Below are positions 5,019 through 24,596 of a stretch of 33,540 nt of DNA, piece after piece (position 1 is the stretch's first letter; each line of letters starts with the position of its first letter). Location of the stretch: contig MGRL01000108.1 of NCBI GenBank assembly GCA_001798165.1, positions 1-33,540 of the forward strand, written 5' to 3'. The DNA is from Deltaproteobacteria bacterium RIFCSPHIGHO2_02_FULL_43_33 (GTDB lineage: Bacteria; Desulfobacterota; GWC2-55-46; UBA9637). A program made the position numbers and the translations under genes. Below the pieces are notes generated by a model that did no database searches, had not been told where the DNA came from, and saw nothing but the letters and a program-made list of their open reading frames with translations.

Positions 5019-5020
5019 TT

Positions 5021-6070: not shown

Positions 6071-6119
6071 TCCGCGCCGTGTTCCGTGCCCATAAAGACA
6101 AGAATCATCTTTCACGGTT

Positions 6120-6139
6120 GACTTGTTCCCAAACTGGAG
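6120..6139 (+). repeat. Half copy of the 3377-3406 repeat, downstream of the first R-M pair
   Basis: This 20-mer matches 3375-3394 at 18 of 20 positions (consensus GACTYGTTCCCAARCTGGAG). The first restriction-modification pair is therefore bracketed by direct repeats. The rest of the 6071-6225 gap holds a CCGTGTTCCGT motif shared with 1629-1697 and nothing else I recognise. Confidence 0.6.
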
Positions 6140-6225
6140 ATTAGGCATTAGATGATAAGGTGATTCAATGTTAAGAAAATTTATTGCTGGCTACCGTTTG
6201 AGATTTACGATATGAAGGAATGGCA

Positions 6226-6615
6226 ATGAGCAAAAAGGTAGTTAAAAACTGGCTTGCCCTTGCAGAGTATGACTTTGAAACGGCAAAGGCGATGATGAAA
6301 AGCGGAAGATACCTGTATGTTGCCTTCACCTGCCAACAGACGATAGAGAAGGCATTAAAGGCTTTGTATGTGAAAGAGAAAGAAGAAACCCCGCCGTATA
6401 CGCATAATCTTATAAGACTTGCAGAAGAATTATCCATTGGTAAACAGATAGACGAAGAAACAAACAGATTTTTAGAGAGATTGAATTCTTATTATATTCA
6501 GTCAAGATATACAGAGGAAATATATCAAATATCAAAATCCCTTGATAAAAAGAGCGCACAGGAGATTTTATCCAAAACAGGAGAGTTGTTTAAATGGCTA
6601 AAAAAACATGTGTAA
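6226..6615 (+). CDS. HEPN-domain protein of a HEPN/MNT pair
   Basis: A 129-residue all-helical protein of the HEPN family (PF05168-type). Evidence is the segment YVAFTCQQTIEKALKALYV, then PYTHNLIRLAEEL, and the late YYIQSRYTEE, matching the family's (S/A)RY(P/T) signature. It lacks a clear Rx4HxY RNase motif, so ribonuclease activity is uncertain. The ATG at 6226 is preferred over 6220 because AAGGA at 6215-6219 sits 6 nt before it. Its 3' end overlaps the nucleotidyltransferase gene by 22 bp. In characterised HEPN/MNT systems the nucleotidyltransferase neutralises the HEPN toxin, sometimes by adenylylation; that role is inferred here from pairing only. Confidence 0.85.
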   Translation: MSKKVVKNWLALAEYDFETAKAMMKSGRYLYVAFTCQQTIEKALKALYVKEKEETPPYTHNLIRLAEELSIGKQIDEETNRFLERLNSYYIQSRYTEEIYQISKSLDKKSAQEILSKTGELFKWLKKHV

Positions 6616-6932
6616 TAGAGGAAGACACTATTAAAAAAGAGATATCCGTTTTCTATAACTTGATAAAAGACGCTTATCCGGTAAAGAAGATGATCCTGTA
6701 CGGTTCTTATGCAAAAGGAGTTGCAACAAAGGACAGCGATATAGATGTTGGAGTTATCATTGATTTGCCTGACAGTGTAAACAAAGTGGAAATAACGGCA
6801 AATCTGTTTCATATCGCCAGAAAGATTGATACCCATATTGAACCTCTGTGCATTTTATGGAGCGAATACAAAAATTTTGAGCGCGGCAGTATTCTTTCGG
6901 AAATAGTTAAAACCGGAATTGAGGTGGTTTAA
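6594..6932 (+). CDS. MNT-type nucleotidyltransferase, partner of the HEPN protein
   Basis: A 112-residue minimal nucleotidyltransferase with the pol-beta-fold motif GSYAKGVATKDSDIDVGV: the GS motif, then the DxD metal-binding pair. The fold ends in HIEPLCILWSEY and a short helix. These proteins transfer AMP or another nucleotide to a protein or tRNA. As the downstream partner of a HEPN protein, it is the probable antitoxin. Translation starts inside the HEPN gene, so expression is likely coupled. It ends 14 bp before scpA, which has no good Shine-Dalgarno of its own; that border looks like an insertion junction. Confidence 0.87.
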   Translation: MAKKTCVIEEDTIKKEISVFYNLIKDAYPVKKMILYGSYAKGVATKDSDIDVGVIIDLPDSVNKVEITANLFHIARKIDTHIEPLCILWSEYKNFERGSILSEIVKTGIEVV

Positions 6933-7735: not shown

Positions 7736-8848
7736 ATGAAAACAACCGGCAGAATTACAAGGTCTTATAAGAAACATTTTATAAAAAAGAAACAACCTGT
7801 AGTCAAGGAATCCCCTGTTCTCTATAGACCAATTGAAACGTCATTTCAAGATTTGCTGAATAATATAATACAGGGAGATAATCTTGAGATATTAAAATTG
7901 ATTCCCGACAATACAGTAAATTTGATCATCACTTCCCCTCCCTATTTTAAACAAAGAGATTACGGCGGCGGCATCGGGAATGAAAAAACCGTTGAGGAAT
8001 ATATTGATAATCTGCTGAAGGTTTTCTCGGAGTGCGTTCGTATTTTAAAGGATGACGGAAGTATCGTATTCAATCTGGGCGATAAATATTTGGAAGGAAG
8101 CCTTCAATTGATTCCATATCGATTTGCCGTTGCGTCTTTAAAATCATTTCCGGTCAAACTGGTGAACAGCATCACTTGGGTAAAATCCAATCCTACACCA
8201 AGACAATATCAGAGAAGACTTGTGAGCAGCGCCGAACCATTTTTTCATTTTATAAAAAACGACAACTACTGTTATAACTTTGCCGACTACATGAGTAATA
8301 ACGGATTGAAAAGCAAACGAACCGCAGGCAATAACATCGGAAAAAAATATTTTGAGCTCATAGAAACCTCTGCTCTAACACTGGAGCAAAAGAAGATGGC
8401 CCTCTGCGAATTGCAGGAAATAATAGAGGCGGTTAAATCCAGGAAAATAGAGAGCTTCCGCATGAAGATAAAGGGCATTCATTCCGAGCCGTTTGGCGGG
8501 CAAGACGGGGGCAGAAAATATCAGCTCATGAGAAAAGGTTTCACAATCATAAAAATTAAAGGCGAACCGATAAAAAGGGATGTGATAGAGTGCGCGGTAG
8601 AAACAATAAAAGGATGCAAACACCCCGCCATCTATCCGCTGTCTATTATTAAAGAACTCATAAAACTCCTTTCCTTGCCCGGCAATATTGTATTGGATCC
8701 GTTCATGGGAAGTGGCACCACGGCGGCGGCGGCCAAAGAACTGGACAGAAGGTATATCGGCATTGAAAGCAATGAGGAATATTGCAAATATGCGCAAGAG
8801 CGGATTAAAAATATCGGGATAGGGAAACCGCTGGAGCTTTTCAGGTGA
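7736..8848 (+). CDS. Beta-class DNA methyltransferase (probably N4-cytosine) of a second restriction-modification system
   Basis: A 370-residue protein with the beta-class motif order. The catalytic TSPPY lies near residues 65-69, and the AdoMet motif DPFMGSGTT is near 320-328, followed by ELDRRYIGIESNEEY. TSPPY is the usual form in N4-cytosine enzymes, but N6-adenine cannot be excluded. About 100 residues between the motifs (around 185-290) form a probable target-recognition insert with SEPFGGQDGGRKYQL. A GAGGGCGGT sequence lies just upstream of the ATG. The stop codon region overlaps the start of the next gene, its presumed nuclease. The pair lies between scpA and scpB, clearly a foreign insertion in that operon. 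Confidence 0.9.
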   Translation: MKTTGRITRSYKKHFIKKKQPVVKESPVLYRPIETSFQDLLNNIIQGDNLEILKLIPDNTVNLIITSPPYFKQRDYGGGIGNEKTVEEYIDNLLKVFSECVRILKDDGSIVFNLGDKYLEGSLQLIPYRFAVASLKSFPVKLVNSITWVKSNPTPRQYQRRLVSSAEPFFHFIKNDNYCYNFADYMSNNGLKSKRTAGNNIGKKYFELIETSALTLEQKKMALCELQEIIEAVKSRKIESFRMKIKGIHSEPFGGQDGGRKYQLMRKGFTIIKIKGEPIKRDVIECAVETIKGCKHPAIYPLSIIKELIKLLSLPGNIVLDPFMGSGTTAAAAKELDRRYIGIESNEEYCKYAQERIKNIGIGKPLELFR

Positions 8849-8853
8849 GAGAA

Positions 8854-9987
8854 ATGACTGCCGATAAAAAGAAAACGCATAGAGATATTCTTCAGGAAAT
8901 TTACCGAAAGGCATTGACCATAGTCAATGACGCTGTTGTCCGGCATTTGTTTGATGAGTTTGGGACTGAAGAGAAAAAATATTTACAGACGGTAATAGAT
9001 AATTTTGAAAAAGGCAAAGGAGTTTTAACGGTTCTCATAACAAGCCTCGTTCATAAGCTGCACAATCCCGCGCAGGATATTCGGCTGCATCAGGATAATA
9101 TGAACGGCGGATATTCCGGCAGAGGAATTGATACAAAATATGTTACTCCTTTTATGAAGGAAATGGAATTTCCTTCAATGGCGGAAAGCGGTTGGTTGAC
9201 GAGATCGCTGGAGCAAAACCTTCCGTATGATTTTCATTACCCGGGAAAAATAACTCCCGATGAGTTGAAAAGAGCATTTCTTAACCTGCTTGACCTGATC
9301 CAAAATCAAAACAGGTCTCCTGAAAAATATTTATTGGCGTTATTTGTAAAACTGATTGAGTATCGTGAGCAGAAAAAGATTGACTTGGCAAAACCTACCA
9401 ACCTTTCCATATCGGCCATCGTTCATGATCTCAAAGAACATTTTGAAGCAGGCTATTCATGCCGAGGGGCTTCCCGCTTGCCTACCTTGGCTGTTTATGC
9501 CGTTTATCAATGCATGATAAAAGAACTGAAACGGTTCGAGGGCAAGCAATTGATGCCATTGGAAGAGCATACTTCCCCTGATAAAAGATCAGGCATGGTA
9601 GGTGATATTGAAGTGAGGAATGCAAAGGGAAGGGTATTTGAAGCCGTTGAGATTAAACATGGAATTTCCATAAATACCAATTTAATCAGAGACGCTTACG
9701 AAAAATTCAAGTCGCATCCGATAGAACGGTATTATCTGTTGACCACCGCAGAAGAAGATTTATCGCATGCCGGGAGCATTGCAAAAGAAGTTTCCAGAAT
9801 ATCAAAAATCCACGGCTGCCAAGTAATTGTGAATGGCATCTATCCGACGCTCAAATATTATTTGCGGCTTTTACACGATCCCTATGATTTTATTGACAAC
9901 TATGTGGAAAGCTTAAAGAGCGACAAAACCATAAAATATGAGCATAAACTGAAATGGAATGAGATTGTCAGCCGGCAGGTATCATAA
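8854..9987 (+). CDS. Type II restriction endonuclease, partner of the second methyltransferase
   Basis: A 377-residue protein with an apparent PD-(D/E)xK core: GDIEVRNAKGRVFEAVEIKHG at about residues 250-270, with EIK as the catalytic pair. A distinctive block lies earlier (HNPAQDIRLHQ, then GGYSGRGIDTKYVTPF, then MAESGWLTRSLEQ). From memory this block resembles proteins annotated as SacI-family endonucleases, but I hold that weakly. Position directly after the methyltransferase makes a restriction role the simplest reading. The ATG at 8854 is preferred over GTG at 8845 because AGGTGA at 8843-8848 is well spaced. No disruption is visible. Confidence 0.75.
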   Translation: MTADKKKTHRDILQEIYRKALTIVNDAVVRHLFDEFGTEEKKYLQTVIDNFEKGKGVLTVLITSLVHKLHNPAQDIRLHQDNMNGGYSGRGIDTKYVTPFMKEMEFPSMAESGWLTRSLEQNLPYDFHYPGKITPDELKRAFLNLLDLIQNQNRSPEKYLLALFVKLIEYREQKKIDLAKPTNLSISAIVHDLKEHFEAGYSCRGASRLPTLAVYAVYQCMIKELKRFEGKQLMPLEEHTSPDKRSGMVGDIEVRNAKGRVFEAVEIKHGISINTNLIRDAYEKFKSHPIERYYLLTTAEEDLSHAGSIAKEVSRISKIHGCQVIVNGIYPTLKYYLRLLHDPYDFIDNYVESLKSDKTIKYEHKLKWNEIVSRQVS

Positions 9988-11305: not shown

Positions 11306-11310
11306 TGAAT

Positions 11311-11364
11311 GTAGTTGCCGATTTATCGGCGTTTTTAAAATGCGCCCATAAATGGGCAAGCTAC
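11311..11364 (+). repeat. Two-hairpin intergenic repeat, copy 1
   Basis: Outer ends GTAGTTGCC and GGCAAGCTAC enclose two small palindromes, GCCGAT-TT-ATCGGC and GCCCAT-AA-ATGGGC, separated by an A/T spacer. It fills the gap between rluB and the EndoIII-like gene and ends 4 nt before the latter's ATG, which lacks a visible Shine-Dalgarno. Other copies are at 14981 and 16766. Confidence 0.85.
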
Positions 11365-11368
11365 AGAT

Positions 11369-12449: not shown

Positions 12450-14984
12450 ATGTTTAGAAAGAGCATTCTATCAAAGATTCTTGGCGTGGTCATAGCTGTT
12501 GCAATTATCGGTTTTGGCGGACTTATTTATAGAGTGATAGAACAGGGAAAAAAGAATCTCTTGGAAGAAAGAAAGAGGGCCAGCGAACTCATGGCAGAGC
12601 CTATATTGGAGAGTATATATGATGATATGCTGCGTGAAAGGGCTGATATAGCCCGTTATTTTATAAAAGGTGTTCAAAGTATAAAGGGTGTGGAAAGGGT
12701 GCAGATCATCAGAAGCAACGGCATAGAAGAGGCATTTCAAGATTTTAAAACACTAAAGACTGTAGAAAAGGAATATGGAAAACTGAAGCCTGAGTGGACT
12801 GCAGATCACCCAGATAAGCAAAATAATGTTGCCCAGGGGGTTGATAAGCCGGAATTTAAGGAAGCTGTCAAGTTATTTAACAAAGGCAAGAAAGAGAGCG
12901 TATCCTATATTGAAGAATCTGTTGACAAGCGCCTTTTAACTTATCTTGTGCCAATAGTGGCAAGGCCAAAATGCAAGTCCTGTCATGGAGTGGAGCAAAG
13001 CGCAAGAGGCGTGCTGATGATATCCACCTCTCTGGAAGATATGTATGCATCTTCAGCATCCAACAGGGAGCGCTGGCTGATATACGGCCTATTTACAATC
13101 CTGAGCATTACCGTCCTTCTTGCTTTTCTTGTTAGAGGTATTATAAGACCGCTCCAGAGGCTTTCTTCTGCAGCAGAGGATATTGCCAATGGCAACTTTA
13201 AAATTAGCGTCCCTGTTCAAACCAGCGATGAAATTGGAAGGCTCTCTCGTTCGTTCAATAAAATGGCGCATGAGGTTGAAGTAAGAACCAAGGAGCTTCA
13301 AAAGCTTTCCATGGCCATAGAGCAGAGCGTCAATGGTGTATTTATTGTAGGCCGTAACGGGGTTATTGAATATGTGAATACGATGTTTGAGCAGATTACC
13401 GGGTACTCTAAAGAAGAGATGGTAGGCCATGATTTGCGAACCTTTGCTTCTGAGATTATGACAAAGAACGAATATGAAGGGTTATGGAAGACTATTTCTG
13501 CAGGCAATACATGGCAAGGATCGTATAAGCATAAAAAGAAATATGGCCAGCCTTACTGGTGCAATTGCTTAATCTCTCCGATTAAAGACAAAAAAGAAAA
13601 TATCACCCATTTCCTTCTGATTCAGGAGGACATTACTAAAAAGAAAGAATCTGAAGAAAGGATACAACATCTTGCCTCATACGATGAGTTGACAGGCCTT
13701 ATCAATCGTACACGGTTTATGGAACTTATGGATGAGTGGATAGCGTATGCCAAAACCAAACCTGCTATTGCCGGGCATCCGCAGACAGGCGCCTTATTAT
13801 TGATTAATATAGATGAATTTAGATATATCAATGATACTTATGGGCACAATATTGGAGATGAATTCCTGCGCGGCGCAGCCAAGATATTGGGAAACACCAT
13901 AAATGATATGGCTGCGCAAAACATAAAAAGGGCAAAGGAGAAAAGTATCATAGGCCGGCTCGGCGGAGATGAGTTTGCAATCTTTATGTCTTACACCGAT
14001 GTAAAAGAAACAATAGATGTTGTTGAACTAATCCGTAAAAAGATAGGAAGTATTCATAGTTTTATATCCGCCTCTGTACAGTTGACTGCAAGCATAGGAA
14101 TTGCGTTTTACCCCAAACATGGGGCGGCGACAAAAGAACTCTTTATAAAGGCAAACGCTGCTATGTCCCAGGCAAAGGAAGCAGGCGGGGATAGGCATCA
14201 TATCTATAGCCCTGAAGATAGCTATTTAGAGAAAATGCGCTCGCGATTTGAGTGGAAGGGGCATATACAGAAGGCTATAGAAGAAGGCCGCTTTGAGCCT
14301 TGGTTTCAGCCCATACTTGACTTGAAAGATGATAAAATACATCATTATGAGGCCCTTGCCCGGATGCGCAGCGAGGATGGGAAGATACTCCTCCCTGGCG
14401 TATTCATTGACACAGCAGAGATATTCGGTCTTATTGGTACAATTGACAAGATTATTACAGAAAAGGTAATGAAGCTCCAGGCAGAGACCAGCCGCCAGAA
14501 AAGCTCTTTAGCCTTTGGGATGAATCTTTCAGGAAAAGACCTGGGGAATGAAGAGCTTCTATCCTTTCTGCAATCCAAGATAGTGGAAACGGGCGCAGAC
14601 CCCAGCCATCTAATCTTTGAAATAACGGAGACTGCGGCAGTTCGCGACATGGATAGAGCCATAAAATTTATAAATGCATTAAAGTCTATAGGATGCCTGT
14701 TTTCTTTAGACGATTTTGGCGTTGGCTTTACATCTTTTATCTATTTGAAGGAGATGAATGTGGATTATATCAAGATTGACGGCTCATTCATAAGACGGCT
14801 CAATGAAAATCAGAATGATCAGCTCTTTGTAAAGGCTATTGTAGATGTGTCAAAGGGAATGGGGATTAAGACCGTCGCCGAATTTGTGGAGAATAAAGAG
14901 ATAATAAAGCTTCTTAAGGAGCTTAATGTAGATTATGCCCAGGGTTATGGCATAGGCAAGCCGGCGCCGTGGAAAGATTTGTAG
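12450..14984 (+). CDS. Membrane sensor HAMP-PAS-GGDEF-EAL protein with periplasmic CXXCH haem motif
   Basis: An 844-residue c-di-GMP signalling protein. TM1 is at about residues 10-28. A periplasmic domain follows, with CKSCH at 175-179, a covalent c-type haem attachment motif in a Tll0287/DUF3365-like sensor. TM2 is at about 208-228, then HAMP, PAS (about 285-395), GGDEF (about 405-575, intact GGDEF) and EAL (about 590-840). The EAL domain has YEALARM, EITE, DDFGVG and KIDGSFIR, so both synthase and phosphodiesterase sites look complete. The likely input is redox state or a gas ligand at the haem. The stop codon TAG lies inside a repeat starting at 14981, so the native end may have been altered. 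Confidence 0.93.
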   Translation: MFRKSILSKILGVVIAVAIIGFGGLIYRVIEQGKKNLLEERKRASELMAEPILESIYDDMLRERADIARYFIKGVQSIKGVERVQIIRSNGIEEAFQDFKTLKTVEKEYGKLKPEWTADHPDKQNNVAQGVDKPEFKEAVKLFNKGKKESVSYIEESVDKRLLTYLVPIVARPKCKSCHGVEQSARGVLMISTSLEDMYASSASNRERWLIYGLFTILSITVLLAFLVRGIIRPLQRLSSAAEDIANGNFKISVPVQTSDEIGRLSRSFNKMAHEVEVRTKELQKLSMAIEQSVNGVFIVGRNGVIEYVNTMFEQITGYSKEEMVGHDLRTFASEIMTKNEYEGLWKTISAGNTWQGSYKHKKKYGQPYWCNCLISPIKDKKENITHFLLIQEDITKKKESEERIQHLASYDELTGLINRTRFMELMDEWIAYAKTKPAIAGHPQTGALLLINIDEFRYINDTYGHNIGDEFLRGAAKILGNTINDMAAQNIKRAKEKSIIGRLGGDEFAIFMSYTDVKETIDVVELIRKKIGSIHSFISASVQLTASIGIAFYPKHGAATKELFIKANAAMSQAKEAGGDRHHIYSPEDSYLEKMRSRFEWKGHIQKAIEEGRFEPWFQPILDLKDDKIHHYEALARMRSEDGKILLPGVFIDTAEIFGLIGTIDKIITEKVMKLQAETSRQKSSLAFGMNLSGKDLGNEELLSFLQSKIVETGADPSHLIFEITETAAVRDMDRAIKFINALKSIGCLFSLDDFGVGFTSFIYLKEMNVDYIKIDGSFIRRLNENQNDQLFVKAIVDVSKGMGIKTVAEFVENKEIIKLLKELNVDYAQGYGIGKPAPWKDL

Positions 14985-15032
14985 TTGCCCATTTATGGGC
15001 ATTTTTAAAAACGCCGATAAATCGGCAACTAC
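14981..15032 (-). repeat. Two-hairpin intergenic repeat, copy 2 (inverted), supplies a stop codon
   Basis: The reverse complement of the 11311-11364 repeat, with GCCCAT/ATGGGC and GCCGAT/ATCGGC stems and GTAGTTGCC/GGCAACTAC ends. Its first bases (GTAG) provide the TAG stop of the upstream GGDEF-EAL gene. Confidence 0.88.
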
Positions 15033-15046
15033 AGAGGAGATAAACC

Positions 15047-16471
15047 ATGAACCTCACCCTTGATTTCAACAATGTAATGTCAGATGTTATAGGCCATGAG
15101 CATGGCCTGAGGCCAGAGGATATTGATGTCGTGAAGGGCAGGGGGGCCGAGATCCATAAAAACCTTCAAGAAAGGAGGAAGGCGGATATTGGTTTTTATA
15201 GCCTTCCTTATGACAATAAACTGCTGAGGGAAGTTTTATCGCTTTCAAAGGAACTGGCCGGCAGTTTTGACAATCTTATTGTCCTCGGCATAGGCGGCTC
15301 GTCTCTGGGCGGAAGGGCTATATTCAATGCCCTGTGTCATCCGTATCATAATCTCCTGTCAAGAACAGGCAGCGTCGGGGTTTATCCCCGACTAAAGAGA
15401 AATGCCTCAAGTATCTTCTTCTGCGATAACATAGACCCGGATAGCTTTGAGCCTCTCCTTAAAATGCTTGACCTGAGAAAAACCCTTTTTAATGTCATAA
15501 CAAAATCAGGCGAGACAGCTGAAACCGTTGCCCAGTTTCTTGCCGTAAAAAAGCTACTTGAGAAAGAGGTTGGGAAAAAATATAAAAATCATATTGTTAT
15601 AACAACCGACCCGATAAAAGGCCCTTTAAGGAAGCTGGCCGGCGAAGAAGGTTTTAAGACCCTTTCCATTCCTCCAAATGTGGGAGGCAGATATTCTGTA
15701 TTTTCAGCGGTAGGTCTGTTTCCATCGACAATGGCAGGGGTTGATATAAAGAAACTTCTTGCCGGCGCCAGAGACATGGACAAGGTATGCAGCATAGACA
15801 ATATATGGAAAAATCCGGCATATATGTCTGCAATCATTCAATATCTTGCATATCAAAGAGGAAAAAATATATCTGTGATTATGCCTTACTCCAATGCGCT
15901 CAGGGATTTTTCCGAGTGGTATATCCAACTCTGGGCAGAGAGCCTTGGCAAGAGCGTAAACCTCAAAGGTAAAGCAGTCAATATCGGGCCAACGCCGGTT
16001 AAGGCCATCGGCACAACAGACCAGCACAGCCAGCTTCAGCTTTACATGGAAGGTCCCTATGACAAGATTATTACATTCATAGAGGTTAAAAAGTTTAAAA
16101 ATGAGGTGTCCATACCAAAGATGTTTGAGGATTTTAAAGAGATTGGCTATCTTGGAGGGCGCTCAATGGAAGAACTGTTCAGGGCAGAGTTAGTAGCAAC
16201 CAGAATTGCCCTGACAAAAAATAAAAGGATGAACTACACCATCACTATCCCTGATATAAATCCATTCACAATCGGCCAGCTTCTTTTTTTCTTTGAAGTC
16301 CAGACCGCATTTGCCGGCGGCTTATTTAATGTTAATCCATTTAACCAGCCCGGTGTGGAAGAGGGGAAGAAACTGACATACGGCATGATGGGAAAGAAGG
16401 GTTATGAAAAAAAAGGGGCAGAGGTTAAGGAAGGACTGAGAAGGAATAAGAGGTATGTAATTCAAGGCTGA
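15047..16471 (+). CDS. pgi: Glucose-6-phosphate isomerase
   Basis: A 474-residue enzyme interconverting glucose 6-phosphate and fructose 6-phosphate. Hallmarks are GIGGSSLGGRAIFNAL, ITKSGETAETVAQF (phosphate-binding), GGRYSVFSAVGLFPSTMAG, TDQHSQLQLYMEGP and NPFNQPGVEEGK. The length and motif order are those of the compact bacterial type. Residues 108-116 (GSVGVYPRL) look like an insertion in the loop before IFFCDNIDPDSF and are encoded by a small palindrome at 15374-15392. A GAGGAGA sequence just after the 14981-15032 repeat gives a good ribosome binding site. Confidence 0.96.
   Translation: MNLTLDFNNVMSDVIGHEHGLRPEDIDVVKGRGAEIHKNLQERRKADIGFYSLPYDNKLLREVLSLSKELAGSFDNLIVLGIGGSSLGGRAIFNALCHPYHNLLSRTGSVGVYPRLKRNASSIFFCDNIDPDSFEPLLKMLDLRKTLFNVITKSGETAETVAQFLAVKKLLEKEVGKKYKNHIVITTDPIKGPLRKLAGEEGFKTLSIPPNVGGRYSVFSAVGLFPSTMAGVDIKKLLAGARDMDKVCSIDNIWKNPAYMSAIIQYLAYQRGKNISVIMPYSNALRDFSEWYIQLWAESLGKSVNLKGKAVNIGPTPVKAIGTTDQHSQLQLYMEGPYDKIITFIEVKKFKNEVSIPKMFEDFKEIGYLGGRSMEELFRAELVATRIALTKNKRMNYTITIPDINPFTIGQLLFFFEVQTAFAGGLFNVNPFNQPGVEEGKKLTYGMMGKKGYEKKGAEVKEGLRRNKRYVIQG
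15374..15392. repeat. Short in-frame palindrome in pgi
   Basis: GTCGGGG, TTTAT, CCCCGAC: perfect 7-bp arms. It encodes VGVYPR in a loop that is shorter in typical Pgi proteins. Its ATAAA-type centre recalls the intergenic two-hairpin repeats. Confidence 0.7.
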
Positions 16472-16560
16472 GGTTAAGTCTAAGGCTAAGATTAAAAACT
16501 CCTTCTCTTATCAACCTCAACCTCAACCTATAGCCCATAGCCTGTATTCTTGCTTATTGC
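16472..16560. repeat. Short tandem repeats between pgi and the mutS remnant
   Basis: The left part has AGGTTAAG/TAAGGCTAAG-like units. The right part has three CAACCT units, then CCTATAGCCCATAGCCTG, which resembles the right arm at 29392-29420. The two parts are roughly complementary. Confidence 0.5.
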
Positions 16561-16593
16561 TTACATCCTGTCTTTTTGTTACTATCCTTTCAT

Positions 16594-16731
16594 ATGCAAG
16601 ACATTGTCTTAAATTCACAATCCGAAATCCCAAATCCGAAATCCGAAGACCTCACCCCTGCCATGAGGCAGTATCTGAGAGGGGGCTGCGTCGAAAAAAT
16701 GGCCGCAGGAGTAAACGAATTAAATTTGTAG
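16594..16731 (+). pseudogene. Truncated duplicate of the mutS 5' end
   Basis: An ATG frame of 45 codons reads MQDIVLNSQSE..., then SEDLTPAMRQYL, then an unrelated tail and a stop. The true MutS begins MQDIILNPQSE... and continues LTPAMQQYMEIKQG. The match extends upstream: TCTTTTTGTTACTATC is identical before both ATGs (16571 and 21854). So 16570-16680 is a diverged copy of the mutS leader and first codons, carrying none of the MutS domains. It marks a duplication or insertion event that left the RND operon between remnant and gene. Confidence 0.8.
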
Positions 16732-16765
16732 TCTGCCTATCCCGTTTAAATACATAACGGGACAA

Positions 16766-16820
16766 GTTTATCGGCGATTTTAATTCGCCTCAGGCGGACG
16801 CCCATAAATGGGCAAACTAC
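16766..16820 (+). repeat. Degenerate two-hairpin intergenic repeat, copy 3
   Basis: The TTTATCGGCG half, a diverged middle containing CGCCTCAGGCGG, and an intact GCCCATAAATGGGC half ending CAAACTAC. It lies 92 bp upstream of the efflux adaptor gene. Confidence 0.65.
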
Positions 16821-16911
16821 ATCTACTTATTTTTGTCGTCCACTATAATACATAAATCTCCCCGTTGTTTCAGTAATTATTAAAACGCTATTTGCTGCTG
16901 AAAGGAACATT

Positions 16912-18054
16912 ATGGATATTAATTCCACTACATCAAAAGATAAACTCTTCAGGCGCATATGGGGCATGCTGCCTGCGCTGTTCCTTGTACTGATAATTAT
17001 AGTTATCGTTGCAATGTTTTCGCGTATCAAAGGTGAAAGCGAACGTATCAAGGCAGAGAAGCTCGCTGCTTTTAATAAAGAACGGCCCCCTGTAAACGTA
17101 GTTGTTCTGGATATTATTCCAATGCTAATACGTGACCGGCTGAATCTCCCGTCGCAGGTTGAGCCGTGGGTTGAGCTAAAAATTCTTGCCGAAGTGTCCG
17201 GAAAAGTGATTAAACTTTCAGCGGATGAAGGCGCTTACGTCCGGAAAGGCGACATAATTGCCGTTCTTGATTCACAGGATTATGAGAATGAGCTTGCCTC
17301 TATTCGTTCTGAGTACGACCTTGCCCGGAAAAACCTGAGCCGCTCAAAGGACCTCTTTGAAGAAGAACTTATTGCAAAGGCAATACTCGATAAAGAGCAA
17401 TCCATAGTTGATTCTCTTTCCGCTTCAATGAAGAATGCTGAGCTCAGGCTCCAAAGATGCACTATCAATGCCCCGATCTCAGGAATAATAAATCGCCTTG
17501 ACGCAAAAGAGGGGCTTAACCTGAATGTTCAGGATCCCATAGCTGTAATCCTTGACATCAGCAGAGTGAAGATAAGCGCAGGAATCCCCGAGTCTGATGT
17601 GGATGAAATAAGAAAGCTCACACAGTTTGATGTGACTATTGATGCCCTTGGCAGCAAGACTGTAAAGGGGCAGAAGATTTTTCTTTCAAAAAGCCCTGAA
17701 TCGTTTGCGCATCTATATAAGCTTGAGATCGAGGTTCAGAACCCGGATAGCGCAATACTCCCCGGCATGTTCGGAAGGGTCAGCATTGTAAAAAAAGAGG
17801 TAAAGGACAGCGTCTCTGTGCCTCTCTATTCAGTCATATCCCGCGGTAACGAACAGTTTGTATTTGTGGAAAAGGACGGCAAGGCACATGTAAGGATGGT
17901 TGAGACAGGTATCCTCGAGGGCTGGAGAATACAGATTTCCAGAGGTCTTAAAAGAGGAGACCGCGTAGTAGTCGTAGGCCACCGCAGCCTTGATGAAGGG
18001 CAGAAAATAAATGTGGTCCGCAGCATATCAGACCCGGAGGACCTTTTTAAGTGA
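16912..18054 (+). CDS. RND efflux periplasmic adaptor (membrane fusion protein)
   Basis: A 380-residue adaptor with an N-terminal membrane anchor (about 17-37). A lipoyl-like half (AEVSGKVIKLSADEGAYVRKGDIIAVLD), an alpha-helical coiled-coil hairpin (about 125-175) and the second lipoyl half (CTINAPISGIINRLDAKEGLNL) follow. Beta-barrel and membrane-proximal domains complete it. It connects an inner-membrane RND pump to an outer-membrane channel. AAGGAA lies 5 nt before the ATG. Its 3' end overlaps the pump gene by 4 bp. No outer-membrane TolC-type gene is in the window, so the pump must borrow one. The substrate is unknown. Confidence 0.93.
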   Translation: MDINSTTSKDKLFRRIWGMLPALFLVLIIIVIVAMFSRIKGESERIKAEKLAAFNKERPPVNVVVLDIIPMLIRDRLNLPSQVEPWVELKILAEVSGKVIKLSADEGAYVRKGDIIAVLDSQDYENELASIRSEYDLARKNLSRSKDLFEEELIAKAILDKEQSIVDSLSASMKNAELRLQRCTINAPISGIINRLDAKEGLNLNVQDPIAVILDISRVKISAGIPESDVDEIRKLTQFDVTIDALGSKTVKGQKIFLSKSPESFAHLYKLEIEVQNPDSAILPGMFGRVSIVKKEVKDSVSVPLYSVISRGNEQFVFVEKDGKAHVRMVETGILEGWRIQISRGLKRGDRVVVVGHRSLDEGQKINVVRSISDPEDLFK

Positions 18055-21000
18055 TACTGTCGGACAACGCAGTGCGTCAGAGAATAAGTGTAATGGTCCT
18101 GGCGGTTATCATAATCGTTTTTGGCGTATACTGCTATAAAGTCCTGCCCCGTGAGAGCGAACCTGATATCACTATTCCATTTGTATTTGTCTCAACGCCC
18201 TACAAGGGTGTCTCACCCTCGGATATTGAAACCTCAATTACGATCCCTATAGAGAAAAAACTTAAAGGCCTTGAAGGGGTAAAAAAGGTCAACTCCATAA
18301 GCTCCGAAGGGCAATCCTCTATAAGTATAGAGTTCGTAACCGGCACGGATATAGACGACGCCATTGAGAAGGTCAGGAACAAGGTAGACGAGGCAAAGAA
18401 TGAACTGCCCTCTGACCTGGAAGATGACTCCTCGGTTTTTGAGGTGAATTTTTCCGAGATGCCGATTGTAATATTTTCACTGAGCGGCACCTGTGGAAAC
18501 CCATGTCTGAAGAAAATAGCGGACGAGATAGAAGACGAGATTGAGGCTATTCCGGGCGTGCTTGACGCAGAAATATCAGGTGCGCTTGAGCGTGAGATCC
18601 GCATTGAAATCAATCCTGAAAAGCTTGCCTATTATAATATTCCTATTACTGCTTTCCAACGTGTAGTCTCCGGCGAGAATCAGAACATATCAGGCGGCGC
18701 CATCAGACTTGGCGATGGACGCTTCCAGCTCAGGGTGCCGGGGGAATTCAGAATGCCTGAGGAGATATACGGTCTTATTGTCGGCACTCACGATGGCCAG
18801 CCAGTTTATCTGAAAGACCTGGCGCGTGTGAAGGACGGGTTTAAGGATGAAACCAGCCGCTCGCGTCTGAACGGGCGTGAATCTGTAAACATCGCTGTAA
18901 AAAAGCGGGCAGGTGAAAACATAATTGAGATAACGGACAGGGTTGACGAAATACTTGCGCGCCTCAGTCCAGGCTGGCCAAAGGGCACTAATATCATTAA
19001 GGTCATGGACAAGTCCAAGGATATACGCATTATGGTCGCTGACCTTGAAAATAATATCTACACCGGTTTAGTACTGGTAGTCCTCGTGCTGCTCTTTGCA
19101 ATGGGTATCAGAAACGCAATACTTGTAGGCCTTGCAATACCTTTTTCAATGCTCCTCTCTTATGTTGTCTTGTATGTGATGGGAATTACACTGAATATGG
19201 TGGTGCTCTTCAGCCTGATACTTGCGCTTGGGATGCTCGTAGACAATGCCATTGTTATCGTTGAGAATATTTACCGCTATATGCAGCAGGGGGTTTCACG
19301 AAGCCAGGCGGCAATGCGCGCTGCATCAGAGGTTGCATGGCCGATAATAGGCTCTACACTGACGACGCTCGCTGCATTTTTTCCGATGATCTTCTGGCCC
19401 GGGATAATGGGGGAATTCATGAAATATCTCCCGATTACACTTATAGTAACTCTTACGGCAAGCCTGTTTGTTGCATTAGTCATAAATCCCGCGCTTGCCT
19501 CTTTCTTCATGAAGACAAAAAACAGCTTGGGCAAAAGCCTTAGTTCAGAAGAGGCATTTGCAGCAGGAGAAAAGCCGATAGAGATAAAGGGTGTTGTGCT
19601 TATCCTTTATGCCGGATTACTAAAAGCCGCTCTAAGGCATCGTCTAACAGTAACACTCTCCACCTTTCTCCTTATGATAATCCTTTTTCAGGGGTGGCTC
19701 CTTGTTGTGGGGCTTGAAAGGCCGGTCGAGTTTTTCCCGCACATAGACCCGAAGTCAATGTATGTGAATATTGATGTGCCTGAAGGAACGGACATTGATT
19801 ACAATGACCGCATACTCAAGCAGATTGAAATGCATATTAACGGCGCTGTCACTGACATTGGCGGCGCTATTGATGATATGTATAAAGAATCTTATCTGCC
19901 AAAGCGCCATAAAAAAGCAGGCAATGATGAATATACAAGCTCCAGCGACCTTGAAAACATAGAATATATTTACGCGCGGTCAGTGGCCTTCCCCACTGCG
20001 GGTTCGGCATTTGAGCCGATGGCTGCAAACCATGTAGGCATACAATTTATCGACATGAAAGACCGCCGTGTCCCTTCATCTGATACCCTTGATAAGGTCC
20101 GTGAGCGTGTAAAAGATATCCCCGGCAGCAAGGTGACAATAGCAGAGGCTGAACAAGGTCCGCCAACAGGCGCTCCGATAAATATTGAGATATCCGGCAC
20201 TGACTTTAGGGTGCTTGGCCGTCTGGCAGGGGAGATACGCAAGGTCATCGAACAAATCCCGTATGTTGAAGATATAAGAGACGATTATGTCGAGGGTACG
20301 CCGTCAGTCAGGGTGTCTGTGGACAGGCAGAAGGCAGCGCTTTTCGGGCTCACGACCGACTCCATAGGTTTTGCGCTCAAGACCGGTTACAACGGCCTTA
20401 ACATTTCAACATACCGTGAAGAAGATGAGGACTTTGATATCACTGTTCAACTTGCTGACCCGGACCGCAGGGTAATAGATATACTTCGCGAGCTGATGCT
20501 GCCGACTCCGGCAGGCAAGATCGTTCCGCTTACAACTGTTGCGAAGATAGATTATTCAGGGAGCCTTGGCAATATCATAAGGATCAATCACTCGCGTGTG
20601 GTTACAGTCAAGGCCAATGTTGACGAAACAAAGATACCCGGCGCTGTGGCGCGTCTCCAGGCAGAGGAGTTGCTTAAGAAATTCCCGATCCCCGCTGGAT
20701 ACAGGATGAAGTTTACCGGCGAGTTTGAGTTTCAAAAAGAGTCTGAGGAGTTTTTGTCCAAGGCGTTTGTTATCGCGCTTTTCCTTATATTCCTTATTCT
20801 TGTTGCCATGTTTAATTCTGTTTCACAGCCCTTTATCATCATGACCTCGGTAATCCTTTCATTGGGCGGGGTCTTCCTCGGTCTAATGACCATAAGTTCT
20901 CCATTCGGCATCATCATGACCGGCGTCGGGGTAATATCACTTGCCGGCGTTGTGGTTAACAATGCCATCATACTTGTTGACTACACAAACAAACTTCGCA

Positions 21001-21368
21001 AGAGGGGGATGAACATCCATAATGCAGTTGTTGCAGGAGGCGCTACCCGGCTGAGGCCAGTGCTCCTTACCGCGATAACGACCATACTCGGCCTTATTCC
21101 CATGGTAACCGGCGTATCGTACGATTTTAAGAATTGGAAAATTTCATGGGTGAGCGAATCTACACAGTGGTGGCGCACTATGGCCGTAGTCGTAATCTAC
21201 GGACTCATGCTCGCAACATTCCTTACCCTTGTTGTTGTGCCGACTCTCTACTCGCTTTTCGACTCATTCCAAAACAGGGCGGGTTCGTATGTTGAGAGTA
21301 TAAGAAGGTTTTACTGGAAGCCTTATGAATGGCTGACAGGCAGAGCAGGGAATAGGCAAAACGAGTAA
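18051..21368 (+). CDS. RND-family efflux transporter permease
   Basis: A 1105-residue inner-membrane pump with the duplicated RND layout. TM1 near residues 12-30 is followed by a periplasmic loop (porter), six TM helices at about 340-560, a second porter loop, and a final TM bundle at about 910-1080. The proton-relay segment in TM4 reads GMLVDNAIVIVENIYR: D398 is present but the second Asp of HAE pumps is Asn. This falls in the broad HAE/AcrB-like branch; the drug or metabolite exported cannot be told. It begins with GTG, overlapping the adaptor stop. Arg codons CGT and CGC are frequent here, while the first 400 codons of mutS use almost only AGA, AGG and CGG, suggesting transfer. Confidence 0.95.
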   Translation: MILSDNAVRQRISVMVLAVIIIVFGVYCYKVLPRESEPDITIPFVFVSTPYKGVSPSDIETSITIPIEKKLKGLEGVKKVNSISSEGQSSISIEFVTGTDIDDAIEKVRNKVDEAKNELPSDLEDDSSVFEVNFSEMPIVIFSLSGTCGNPCLKKIADEIEDEIEAIPGVLDAEISGALEREIRIEINPEKLAYYNIPITAFQRVVSGENQNISGGAIRLGDGRFQLRVPGEFRMPEEIYGLIVGTHDGQPVYLKDLARVKDGFKDETSRSRLNGRESVNIAVKKRAGENIIEITDRVDEILARLSPGWPKGTNIIKVMDKSKDIRIMVADLENNIYTGLVLVVLVLLFAMGIRNAILVGLAIPFSMLLSYVVLYVMGITLNMVVLFSLILALGMLVDNAIVIVENIYRYMQQGVSRSQAAMRAASEVAWPIIGSTLTTLAAFFPMIFWPGIMGEFMKYLPITLIVTLTASLFVALVINPALASFFMKTKNSLGKSLSSEEAFAAGEKPIEIKGVVLILYAGLLKAALRHRLTVTLSTFLLMIILFQGWLLVVGLERPVEFFPHIDPKSMYVNIDVPEGTDIDYNDRILKQIEMHINGAVTDIGGAIDDMYKESYLPKRHKKAGNDEYTSSSDLENIEYIYARSVAFPTAGSAFEPMAANHVGIQFIDMKDRRVPSSDTLDKVRERVKDIPGSKVTIAEAEQGPPTGAPINIEISGTDFRVLGRLAGEIRKVIEQIPYVEDIRDDYVEGTPSVRVSVDRQKAALFGLTTDSIGFALKTGYNGLNISTYREEDEDFDITVQLADPDRRVIDILRELMLPTPAGKIVPLTTVAKIDYSGSLGNIIRINHSRVVTVKANVDETKIPGAVARLQAEELLKKFPIPAGYRMKFTGEFEFQKESEEFLSKAFVIALFLIFLILVAMFNSVSQPFIIMTSVILSLGGVFLGLMTISSPFGIIMTGVGVISLAGVVVNNAIILVDYTNKLRKRGMNIHNAVVAGGATRLRPVLLTAITTILGLIPMVTGVSYDFKNWKISWVSESTQWWRTMAVVVIYGLMLATFLTLVVVPTLYSLFDSFQNRAGSYVESIRRFYWKPYEWLTGRAGNRQNE

Positions 21369-21394
21369 CCCGGAAAATGAAATGGCATTTTCTG

Positions 21395-21467
21395 ATAATA
21401 CATCATATGGGATAAGAATCATGTGATGTTGGCCAGACACTGGCCAAGTGCGAAAATGGTGTATTAT
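21395..21467. repeat. Inverted repeat with inner hairpin, downstream of the RND gene
   Basis: Outer arms ATAATACATCAT (21395-21406) and ATGGTGTATTAT (21456-21467) match at 11 of 12 positions. Inside is a perfect TTGGCCA-gacac-TGGCCAA hairpin (21429-21447). No T-run follows, so a Rho-independent terminator is not supported. Confidence 0.55.
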
Positions 21468-21490
21468 TCAACCAGTCAAGTCTAATTAAA

Positions 21491-21639
21491 TTAACAGGCT
21501 GTTGAAAAAGGCATCAACAGCCTTGATTACACAGATTAGGAAAAACGATTACACAGATATTTCAATGGGTTTTAATCTGTGAAATCTAATCTTTTATCCG
21601 TGTAATCGGAGTTTGTTGAGTTTTTCAACAAACTGTTAA
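21491..21639. repeat. 149-bp inverted-repeat element upstream of mutS
   Basis: Terminal arms TTAACAGGCTGTTGAAAAA and TTTTTCAACAAACTGTTAA pair at 17 of 19 positions. The interior continues the symmetry with GATTACACAGAT-type repeats on the left and ATCTGTG/CCGTGTAATC on the right. No ORF is present. The structure suggests a MITE-like or hairpin element. Confidence 0.75.
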
Positions 21640-21684
21640 ATAGTTGCGGCGATTTGATTTTGTGATTTGGTTGATATGGCTCTA

Positions 21685-21720
21685 AAAGTTGGATAAAGTC
21701 CAGAAACTGTATAATCAGTT
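21685..21720 (+). promoter_or_regulatory. Possible sigma-70-type promoter upstream of a mini-ORF and mutS
   Basis: A TTGGAT sequence lies about 15-16 nt before a consensus TATAAT. The spacing is slightly short, so this is only a candidate. The next 30 bp contain two AGGAGG-like sequences. Confidence 0.35.
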
Positions 21721-21747
21721 CTTAGGAGGAAAATCAGGAGGATTACC

Positions 21748-21810
21748 ATGGATACCGCTGGTTCTGTTAAAGGGTTTAAAAATTTCCTAATTTCAATTCC
21801 TAATTCCTAA
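21748..21810 (+). CDS. 20-codon mini-ORF, leader peptide or truncated gene start
   Basis: AGGAGG at 21736-21741 lies 6 nt before the ATG, one of the best ribosome binding sites in the window. The frame encodes MDTAGSVKGFKNFLISIPNS and stops inside a heptamer array. The first 13 residues look like a real protein N-terminus; the last six are encoded by repeat DNA. It may be a gene truncated by repeat insertion or a short leader for mutS. I cannot assign a function. Confidence 0.35.
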   Translation: MDTAGSVKGFKNFLISIPNS

Positions 21811-21828
21811 TTAACAATTCCCGTTCCC
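21794..21828 (+). repeat. Tandem heptamers upstream of mutS
   Basis: Units CAATTCC, TAATTCC, TAATTAA, CAATTCC, CGTTCCC in strict 7-bp register. A comparable array (AATCCGA/AATCCCA units) lies in the mutS remnant at 16618-16648. Confidence 0.7.
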
Positions 21829-21875
21829 TGTCTTTATTATTGCCTCTCACCTATCTTTTTGTTACTATCTTTTTT

Positions 21876-24596
21876 ATGCAAGATATTATCTTAAATCCCC
21901 AATCCGAGAGCGCAACTCTTAACTCCGAAGCCTCAAATACTGGCGAACGGCAGTTCGCCCCTACAAACTCTCTTACCCCAGCGATGCAGCAGTATATGGA
22001 GATTAAGCAGGGTTGCAAAGACGCCATCCTGTTTTTCAGAATGGGCGATTTCTATGAGATGTTTTTTGAAGACGCCAAGCTTGCCTCAAAAACCTTAAAT
22101 ATTACCCTTACAACAAGAGACAGAAACAAAGAAAATGCCATTCCCATGTGCGGCGTGCCGTATCATGCGGCAGCCGGGTATATAGCAAGACTTGTTAAAG
22201 AAGGGCACAAGGTGGCTGTGTGCGAACAGGTTGAGGGCCGAAACCCCCTCACAGATTTAAAATCTGCCCCCACTGCAAAAGGCATCATGCGGCGGGAGAT
22301 AACGCGGGTCATCACACCTGGTGTTGTGTTGGAAGAAGAGTTGCTGGATGCAAAGACAAACAATTTCATAGCAGCCTTAACATGGACTGAAAATATGGGC
22401 GGTCTCTCTTATATGGATGTGACCACAGGTGAATTTAAGGTGACAGAATTTTCTGGAAAGAATGAACTATTGGATGAGATGAAACGGATAGAGATGAAAG
22501 AACTGCTTATCCCGGAAGAATTAGCTAACAGTAAATCTTTTGCAGAATTCTCAAAGGCTGCAAATAATGTGAGGGTTACGCTCTTACATGGATGCAATGT
22601 GCGGCATGAGGAAGCTGTATACGGTTTGACATCTCATTTTCAGGTTATATCTCTGGATGGTTTTGGATGTGCTTCGCTGAGTGAGGGTGTAAAGGCTGCG
22701 TGGATTCTGCTCAAGTATGTGAGGGAAACACAGAAAGGTGCACTTCCTCATATAAAAAGATTATCTGCCTATCATCCCAGCCAGTTTATGATAATAGACT
22801 CCATGACAAAGAAGAATCTTGAGCTCATAGAGACCATACGGCACAGCGGGAAAAAGGGGACGCTCCTCGGTCTTTTAGACAAAACCAAGACTGCCATGGG
22901 CGGAAGAAGATTAAGGGCCTGGTTAGACTCGCCTCTGAAAGATGTGTCAGAGGTAAATAGAAGGCTTGATGCTGTTGAGGAGATGTCCGGAGAAAAGCTG
23001 GTTCGGGAGGAGATTCAGGTCTATCTGGTCAAGGTGTATGATATTGAAAGGCTTGCGGTAAGGGTAGCCCTTGATACAGCAAATCCGCGGGATATTATCA
23101 GCCTCAGGGATTCGCTCAGGATTATACCAAAGATAAAGAACCTTCTAAAGCCCTTTAGTTCAGCCCTCATGAAGGGCATCTATCATGGATTGGATGATGT
23201 AAAAGAGGCTGCTGATTTGATCGAGGCCGGTATTATTGATTTACCTCCAATGACAGCAAGGGAAGGCGGTGTTATCAGAGAGGGATTCAATGCAGAATTG
23301 GATGAGTTGCGAGGCATCATGAGCAGCGGCAAGGATTGGATTTCAAGATTTGAGGCAGGTGAGAAAAAGAGGACAGGCATAAATTCTTTAAAGGTTGGAT
23401 ATAATAAAATCTTTGGATATTATGTTGAGATTACAAAGGCCAATCTGCCGCAGGTTCCGGTTAATTATGCAAGAAAGCAGACCCTTGTGAATGCTGAAAG
23501 GTTTATAACGTCTGAGTTGAAGGAGTATGAGACCAAGGTTCTCGGCGCAGAGGAAAGGGTGATAATTCTGGAGCAGAGGCTCTTTCATGAAATAAGAAAG
23601 AAGGTTGCTTTTTACAGGGATAGGATTCAGGAGACTGCAAACCTTTTGGCAGGCTTGGATGTCCTGACTGCCTTTAGTCAAATAGCAGATGATATGGATT
23701 ATGTCAGGCCCAAGATAAACGACGGGGATGCAATAAATATTATGGAAGGCAGACATCCTATTATAGAGGCGAATAAGGAAGAGCGGTTTGTTTCCAACGA
23801 CACCTTATTAGACGGCGCAGATAATCAGATAATAATCCTTACAGGCCCTAACATGGCAGGCAAGTCCACTTACATAAGGCAGGCTGCCCTTATCGTGATT
23901 ATGGCGCAGATTGGGAGTTTTGTGCCTGCAAAAGAGGCGATGATAGGTATTGTTGACAGGGTGTTTACACGGATAGGCGCGTCAGATGACATAAGCAGAG
24001 GTCTTTCCACATTCATGGTTGAGATGAGCGAGACTGCCAGCATACTCAACAATGCTACGGAAAAGAGTCTTGTTATCCTTGATGAGATAGGCAGGGGCAC
24101 ATCTACCTATGACGGTTTGAGCATAGCATGGGCTGTTGCAGAATATATCCACGACCATCCGCAGGTCAGGGCAAAAACCCTTTTTGCAACGCATTATCAC
24201 GAATTGACAGAACTTTCTTTAACAAAAGACAGGGTAAGAAATTATAATATGGCGGTCAAGGAATGGAATGACAAGGTTATCTTCTTAAGAAAGGTAGTGC
24301 CGGGCGGAAGCAACCGCAGCTATGGAATTCAGGTTGCAAGGCTTGCTGGTATGCCGGAGCATGTTATACAGAGGGCAAAGGAGATATTGCATAATCTTGA
24401 AAAGGGCGAGCTTAATGAGGCAGGCATGCCGAGACTGGCTTCGTCAAAAAATATGGAACAGACAATCCCGCAGATGAATCTTTTCGGCGAAAAGGATTTG
24501 GTAAAAGAGGAGCTGCTCAAAATAGATGTAAACAGCCTTACGCCGGTAGAGGCGTTGGTGAAGCTGAGTCAGTTGAAGGAGATGGCAGAGGAGTGA
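21876..24596 (+). CDS. mutS: DNA mismatch repair protein MutS
   Basis: A mismatch-recognition ATPase of 906 residues from the ATG at 21876. FFRMGDFYEMFFEDA carries the mismatch-contacting Phe-X-Glu. Walker A is GPNMAGKSTYIRQ, Walker B DEIGRGTSTYDG, and FATHYHELTEL follows; the C-terminus carries the short PVEALVKLSQLKEM. The frame is open from TTG at 21840, but ATG 21876 is preferred because the duplicated remnant at 16594 shares it. The first 36 residues before MQQYM are an unusual extension, partly made of repeats (GERQFAPT from 21942-21959). LTDLKSAP at 125-132 comes from a degenerate 25-bp palindrome. No mutL is in the window. Confidence 0.96.
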   Translation: MQDIILNPQSESATLNSEASNTGERQFAPTNSLTPAMQQYMEIKQGCKDAILFFRMGDFYEMFFEDAKLASKTLNITLTTRDRNKENAIPMCGVPYHAAAGYIARLVKEGHKVAVCEQVEGRNPLTDLKSAPTAKGIMRREITRVITPGVVLEEELLDAKTNNFIAALTWTENMGGLSYMDVTTGEFKVTEFSGKNELLDEMKRIEMKELLIPEELANSKSFAEFSKAANNVRVTLLHGCNVRHEEAVYGLTSHFQVISLDGFGCASLSEGVKAAWILLKYVRETQKGALPHIKRLSAYHPSQFMIIDSMTKKNLELIETIRHSGKKGTLLGLLDKTKTAMGGRRLRAWLDSPLKDVSEVNRRLDAVEEMSGEKLVREEIQVYLVKVYDIERLAVRVALDTANPRDIISLRDSLRIIPKIKNLLKPFSSALMKGIYHGLDDVKEAADLIEAGIIDLPPMTAREGGVIREGFNAELDELRGIMSSGKDWISRFEAGEKKRTGINSLKVGYNKIFGYYVEITKANLPQVPVNYARKQTLVNAERFITSELKEYETKVLGAEERVIILEQRLFHEIRKKVAFYRDRIQETANLLAGLDVLTAFSQIADDMDYVRPKINDGDAINIMEGRHPIIEANKEERFVSNDTLLDGADNQIIILTGPNMAGKSTYIRQAALIVIMAQIGSFVPAKEAMIGIVDRVFTRIGASDDISRGLSTFMVEMSETASILNNATEKSLVILDEIGRGTSTYDGLSIAWAVAEYIHDHPQVRAKTLFATHYHELTELSLTKDRVRNYNMAVKEWNDKVIFLRKVVPGGSNRSYGIQVARLAGMPEHVIQRAKEILHNLEKGELNEAGMPRLASSKNMEQTIPQMNLFGEKDLVKEELLKIDVNSLTPVEALVKLSQLKEMAEE
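21942..21959. repeat. In-frame palindrome in the MutS N-terminal extension
   Basis: GGCGAAC-ggca-GTTCGCC with perfect 7-bp arms, followed by CCTACA. It encodes part of TGERQFAPT, which is absent from the mutS remnant at 16594, so it was probably inserted after the duplication. Confidence 0.7.
22247..22271. repeat. 25-bp intragenic palindrome, copy 5 (degenerate, in mutS)
   Basis: The core CAGATTT-A-AAATCTG is intact and the right end CCCC is kept. The left G-run has decayed. Read as LTDLKSAP, in the same frame as in trpS and rluB. Confidence 0.8.

Follow-up and report, generated by a model that had tools for sequence, protein, structure and literature searches.

The window analysed here is the complete contig C108 (MGRL01000108.1, 33,540 nucleotides) from the draft genome (2.19 Mb, 126 contigs) of Deltaproteobacteria bacterium RIFCSPHIGHO2_02_FULL_43_33, referred to below as G000. 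In this window, a two-gene efflux pump operon of the resistance-nodulation-division (RND) type, encoding a membrane fusion protein (MFP) and an RND permease, separates pgi from mutS, and the beginning of mutS is present twice, once on either side of the pump. An earlier note on this DNA had described a broken copy of the mutS 5' end upstream of the gene with the RND operon between copy and gene, and this arrangement is confirmed. The features that define it are the following:

15047-16471, forward strand: pgi, the left neighbour of the block (Pfam PGI), which adjoins mutS in the sister genera G002 and G003
16548-16593, forward strand: second copy of the mutS upstream region, containing the 16-mer TCTTTTTGTTACTATC
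16594-16680, forward strand: orphan mutS start, the first ~29 codons, ending just past LTPAMRQY, the counterpart of the HTPMMQQ motif
21831-21875, forward strand: upstream region of intact mutS, homologous to 16548-16593
21876-24596, forward strand: intact mutS (MutS1) with its own start (NCBIfam mutS1, 1026 bits; cut-off, 642)
21942-21959, no strand assigned: palindrome GGCGAACGGCAGTTCGCC (GERQFAP codons), an insertion in intact mutS only

The segment 16548-16654 aligns with 21831-21935 at 78.5% identity over 107 columns (E = 7.4e-17); no direct repeat in the window is longer, and the sole other such match of this segment in the 2.19 Mb of the genome is mutS itself. Its local alignment score of 98 compares with a mean of 19.6 and a maximum of 32 in 500 shuffles, and the same flanks score 18, that is, at chance level, once the mutS start is left out. 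Among the 17 gene starts of the window that were tested, that of mutS alone has a long, non-dispersed second copy. The 16-mer TCTTTTTGTTACTATC, at 16571, recurs unchanged before intact mutS and is near-identical in G002 and G005. The remnant opens with an ATG at 16594 and reads MQDIVLNSQSEIPNPKSEDLTPAMRQYL; aligned with four relatives, its MQDIVLNSQSE...DLTPAMRQY is the family form of the MutS N terminus, and the 16-mer and the MQDI.LN.QSE and LTPAM.QY motifs that the earlier note had listed as shared are all seen in the alignment. A dispersed simple repeat, AATCCGAAATCCCAAATCCGAAATCCGAA, occupies the middle of the remnant, but the two motifs and the promoter stretch flank it, so that homology on both sides is independent of the repeat and similarity outside the repeat units is above chance. 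The remnant had been described as 45 codons long, which is correct for the open reading frame (ORF) but not for its mutS part: homology extends only to ~16680 (codon 29), after QY(L), and the last ~16 codons consist of filler and a transposon end, the stop codon being provided by a miniature inverted-repeat transposable element (MITE).

The downstream mutS is a full-length gene preceded by an upstream region of its own; its product is 79-80% identical to those of G002 and G003 at the amino acid level. The GERQFAPT palindrome is confined to the full copy, as had been claimed: it is missing from the remnant and from each of the four family relatives whose mutS start could be read, and it occurs once more elsewhere in the genome. 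A different palindromic dispersed repeat, CAGATTTAAAATCTGCCCCCA, lies within the mutS coding sequence at 22252-22275 with the frame kept, and has copies at 2580, 7339, 10725 and 10845. A short palindromic element is also present in two inverted copies, one just 5' of nth (11310-11368) and the other just 5' of pgi (14977-15035).

The site without the pump is found in both sister genera. In G003, the order M50-trpS-scpA-scpB-rluB-nth-EAL-pgi-mutS is uninterrupted, and G002 has pgi-mutS-ami-glnD; neither carries the pump there. The proposal that pgi and mutS were once neighbours is thus borne out, and in the window, the genes that flank the block, pgi to its left and ami-glnD to its right, keep the ancestral order. 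No remnant was seen without RND genes in G002, G003, G005 or G007 (in the last two, pgi and mutS do not share a contig). Within the family, no match to mutS was found in G004 (completeness, 99%) or G006 (82%), and none to pgi in G001, G004, G006 or G007; these absences are possibly real losses. In G001, which is of the same genus as G000, the sequence breaks off within mutS.

The pump is foreign to its genome. In a survey of 63 genomes of the class, the MFP-RND unit is present in two, G000 and G006, a member of another genus, and is absent from the other 61. The two copies are 91.6% identical in DNA and 94% in amino acid sequence, whereas orthologues between these genera are 71-78% identical; the next best permease in a wider sample of the phylum is 68% identical. 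The hallmarks of a horizontally transferred RND operon are all found: an adaptor with a permease, excess similarity, patchy distribution and an empty site. That the block had entered the locus, as the earlier note held, agrees with these data. At 4-fold degenerate sites, the G000 and G006 copies diverge by 0.23 (permease) and 0.15 (adaptor), whereas pgi, mutS and ami diverge by 0.41-0.62 between the genera. This places the transfer after the split of the genera, yet not in recent times, in keeping with the view that the event was not a very recent one. The remnant and its own mutS differ at 13 of 82 trusted sites, a difference of the size expected from the neutral divergence of the pump, and the identity of own mutS to its G002 and G003 counterparts stays even over the whole gene, with no mosaic break. 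As plasmid cargo, the pump was rejected (best plasmid match, only 36% identity), and no copy was found in viral contigs.

The insert between the two mutS starts is composite, comprising a TA-flanked MITE, the pump genes and an integron attI-like fragment that is split by a second MITE:

16681-16709, no strand assigned: filler at the left junction, with no convincing match in mutS or the rest of the genome
16710-16849, forward strand: TA-flanked MITE-like element with TATAGT...ACTATA ends, about 20 genomic copies
16850-21354, forward strand: unit shared with G006, 91.6% DNA identity, sharp edges ACATAAATCTCC... and ...GCAGGGAATA
16912-18054, forward strand: RND periplasmic adaptor (MFP; Pfam HlyD_D23; NCBIfam RND_mfp, 214 bits; cut-off, 94.9)
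18051-21368, forward strand: RND permease, 1105 aa (Pfam ACR_tran, 720 bits)
21408-21721, forward strand: integron attI-like leader with promoter-like boxes, ending ACTGTATAATCAGTT/CTTAGG
21491-21640, no strand assigned: second MITE, inside the attI-like leader, more than 40 genomic copies
21748-21810, forward strand: cassette-like gene start of 20 codons, read from the sequence as a ribosome-binding site followed by MDTAGSVKGFKNF...

The block thus begins at 16681-16710, not at about 16730 as first proposed. Fourteen other copies of the left MITE, when aligned, begin with TATAGT and end with ACTATA, as is typical of a TA-targeting element; the copy in the window lacks the outermost 2-3 bases on the left, and the pump unit begins immediately 3' of it, at 16850. 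The pump comes with a ribosome-binding-like site of its own and a 62-bp leader in common with G006. Two G003 loci are similar to the attI-like leader, and at one of them a small ORF follows, bounded by GTTAGGC. The 3' end of the leader is similar to the attI side of the genome's own integron integrase gene (373.9 bits; cut-off, 265). This integrase gene (L213:1978-3423, on contig C10 of G000) is accompanied by an attI-like site and a first cassette-like ORF; among eight family members, only G000, G004 and G006 have integron integrases over the cut-off. The gene start at 21748-21810 decays into AT-rich sequence leading into the mutS promoter region. With two MITEs and an attI fragment, the block is a patchwork and need not reflect a single event. 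It contains no integrase or transposase ORF: the pgi-mutS interval holds three ORFs of at least 100 aa, namely, the MFP, the RND permease and one antisense within the latter. On inspection, the edges of the pump unit, which G000 and G006 have in common, bear no inverted repeats, and a classical transposon is not matched, since there is no transposase and the flanking repeats are long and differ between the G000 and G006 sites. The pump was also rejected as an integron cassette, as it lies upstream of the attI-like site, that is, on the wrong side; inspection by eye of the sequence past the RND stop, in place of a dedicated attC search, revealed no attC, and a site of this kind is missing from the end of the G006 copy.

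G006 carries the unit at an unrelated gene, with toxin-antitoxin debris on one side and, on the other, the gene for a subunit of an NDP-forming acyl-CoA ligase. To the left of the pump is a diverged ~76-bp copy of the leader and first ~10 codons of the ligase gene, ending where the unit starts, and the complete ligase gene is to its right (local score of 83 against a shuffle maximum of 35; E = 6e-16). In G003, the junction between leader and ligase gene is unbroken. One pump unit is thus found at two unrelated genes, each time with an orphaned 5' end of the downstream gene. A third partial copy of the ligase leader, with no ligase codons, lies at L130:5377. The ligase leader was discarded as a native promoter in G006, its upstream half reading as the 3' end of what is presumably a restriction-type gene. 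Fragments of this LTEEEIAIVEG-like kind are scattered beside toxin-antitoxin-like modules in the family (L130:5377-5433, L130:6419-6460, L203 and L202).

Two other foreign inserts lie in the operon upstream. The first (3411-6932, between trpS and scpA) carries a DNA methylase, a restriction enzyme of the TdeIII type and, in two small ORFs, what looks like a toxin-antitoxin pair, and is missing at the same site in G001, G002, G003 and G004. The second is a restriction-modification-like pair at 7736-9987, between scpA and scpB, found at the same site in G001 and G004; it is 96-98% identical to the G004 pair, as against 74-91% for most flanking genes, which points to exchange between genera.

We think it reasonably probable that an acquired MFP-RND operon, together with mobile debris, was inserted within codons ~29-30 of mutS and that recombination left the mutS start in two copies. 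The foreign operon and the debris flanking it would have entered between pgi and mutS; the left, pgi-linked copy, with the promoter stretch, the start codon and ~29 codons, would have been cut off as an orphan, and the right copy would have kept a promoter and a start in frame with the rest of mutS, allowing the gene to survive. Had mutS been cut with no duplication of this sort, the gene would have been destroyed and the insertion lost, and survivorship may thus be the cause of the 5'-end pattern. The likeliest mechanism would be non-dedicated recombination that requires no dedicated enzyme, such as single-crossover integration of a circle bearing a piece of the target, one-sided homologous or illegitimate joining, or a template switch during repair. 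In experiments on plasmid integration in E. coli, target duplications made up 56 of 60 integrants and measured 109-950 bp in the 14 that were sequenced (PMC3240628). The orphan region keeps the conserved TTTTTGTTACTATC stretch and the start codon, and the pump could possibly be expressed from the orphan promoter, a suggestion that finds no support in the promoter scan (no sigma-70 site above threshold at 16548-16593).

Several observations weigh against this explanation. The break coincides with the motif used by known mutS-integrating elements (PMC5296598), which is unexpected for random joining. Across the 24 nt of LTPAMRQY, it is the intact copy (MQQY) that differs from all relatives, and not the remnant (MRQY), as would fit an imported start. 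No coding site joins the remnant and its own mutS to the exclusion of the relatives. In a tree of ~83 alignable sites, the grouping of these two is best, but with an approximately unbiased (AU) test p of 0.69 as compared with 0.30-0.48 for the alternatives that are not rejected; only placements of the remnant with G005 alone or with G007 alone are rejected. The remnant being not significantly closer to its own mutS than to those of most other genera, one of the starts may have been imported, and the entry of the block with partial duplication of the mutS start, proposed in the earlier note as the simplest history, is no more than likely. Finally, the flanks of the two restriction-modification inserts show no partial duplication, a weak 37-bp repeat at about 3374/6119 being the only hint, and eight homologues of the pump elsewhere in the phylum (56-68% identity) have no flanking repeat. 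The phenomenon is therefore not general: partial duplication is rejected as a general habit of the genome by the former and as a habit of the pump family by the latter.

An unlikely, though serious, alternative is that the block is a decayed integrative element targeting HTPMMQQ of mutS, of the kind known from Vibrio and other Beta- and Gammaproteobacteria, which has lost its integrase and carries the pump as cargo; such elements orphan the start of the host gene and bring in a new start with its promoter. The anatomy and the break point are the same, the remnant ending directly past LTPAMRQY; known elements range from 4 kb to over 150 kb, and one of 7 kb has few genes and no detectable excision (PMC5296598); the remnant is relative-like at the motif and the active start odd; and the phylogeny is compatible with separate origins of the two starts. 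However, there is neither an integrase gene nor space for one outside the two pump genes, and the block holds an integron fragment and two MITEs instead of element genes. Moreover, the two starts are homologous through promoter and N terminus, whereas the start of the Vibrio element is described as unlike that of its host, and the G006 unit, at an unrelated gene, is not tied to mutS. On balance, we favour recombinational partial duplication over a decayed mutS-targeting element as the probable mechanism.

It is improbable that either the present or the pgi-linked mutS start was imported from another family member by homology-facilitated recombination, the two starts then being orthologues of different lineages. 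The remnant is about as far from its own mutS (13 of 82 trusted sites) as from those of other genera (15 of 83 and 8 of 57), and gene flow between genera is evident in the operon from the pair between scpA and scpB. Against this, one donor would need to have had the pump next to mutS and another donor next to the ligase gene, the remnant still groups with own mutS in the best tree, and the identity of own mutS to G002 and G003 is unbroken along its length. We regard as more doubtful still the idea that the MFP-RND unit is a non-autonomous mobile cassette that enters the first codons of genes, orphaning a promoter and 5' end upstream with a complete one downstream; such a unit would take over a housekeeping promoter while its target gene stays functional. 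An assembly artefact joining two loci, for which a draft genome in 126 contigs gives some scope, is very improbable, as the copies differ at about 20% of sites and their reads would not easily be collapsed or cross-joined, the pgi and ami-glnD flanks are in ancestral order, and the pump is flanked in the same way in an independent genome.

The locus offers a dated, bounded example of a gene pair entering a conserved operon without destroying the gene that was cut. If an orphan start were a general signature, scans for orphaned 5' ends would reveal acquisitions that leave no integrase or transposase.

Among known systems, the closest in anatomy are the mutS-integrating elements of Vibrio splendidus 12B01 and hundreds of Beta- and Gammaproteobacteria, which interrupt mutS at the HTPMMQQ motif, the start being left behind as an orphan (PMC5296598). 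In both cases, foreign DNA lies inside the N-terminal TPMMQQ/TPAMRQY motif, a host-type start is orphaned upstream, and a second start and promoter serve mutS downstream. Unlike in those elements, there is no integrase near mutS here, both starts are homologous over promoter and N terminus, the cargo consists of an MFP-RND pair accompanied by debris of MITEs and an integron, and the host belongs to an uncultured deltaproteobacterial-type lineage, with the pump found also at an unrelated gene in another genus. Like integron attI/cassette platforms, 21408-21721 resembles the genome's own attI side and ends at a GTTRRRY-like point; unlike a cassette, the pump is not on the cassette side of the attI-like site, and no attC was recognised for it. 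With single-crossover and homology-facilitated illegitimate recombination (PMC3240628), the latter also invoked for arrays of the type VI secretion system in Vibrio (PMC5361080), the locus shares an insert flanked by a partial target copy of about 100-1000 bp; those processes need no dedicated recombinase, and the same is assumed here. The E. coli plasmid duplications were shown experimentally, whereas here the outcome alone is seen, diverged by about 20%. A foreign insert that orphans the mutS start is thus already known, and the scar repeated in a second genus, together with the coincidence of the motif, adds moderate interest: the mutS N-terminal motif as a break point for foreign DNA is extended beyond the Beta- and Gammaproteobacteria, in this instance without an integrase.

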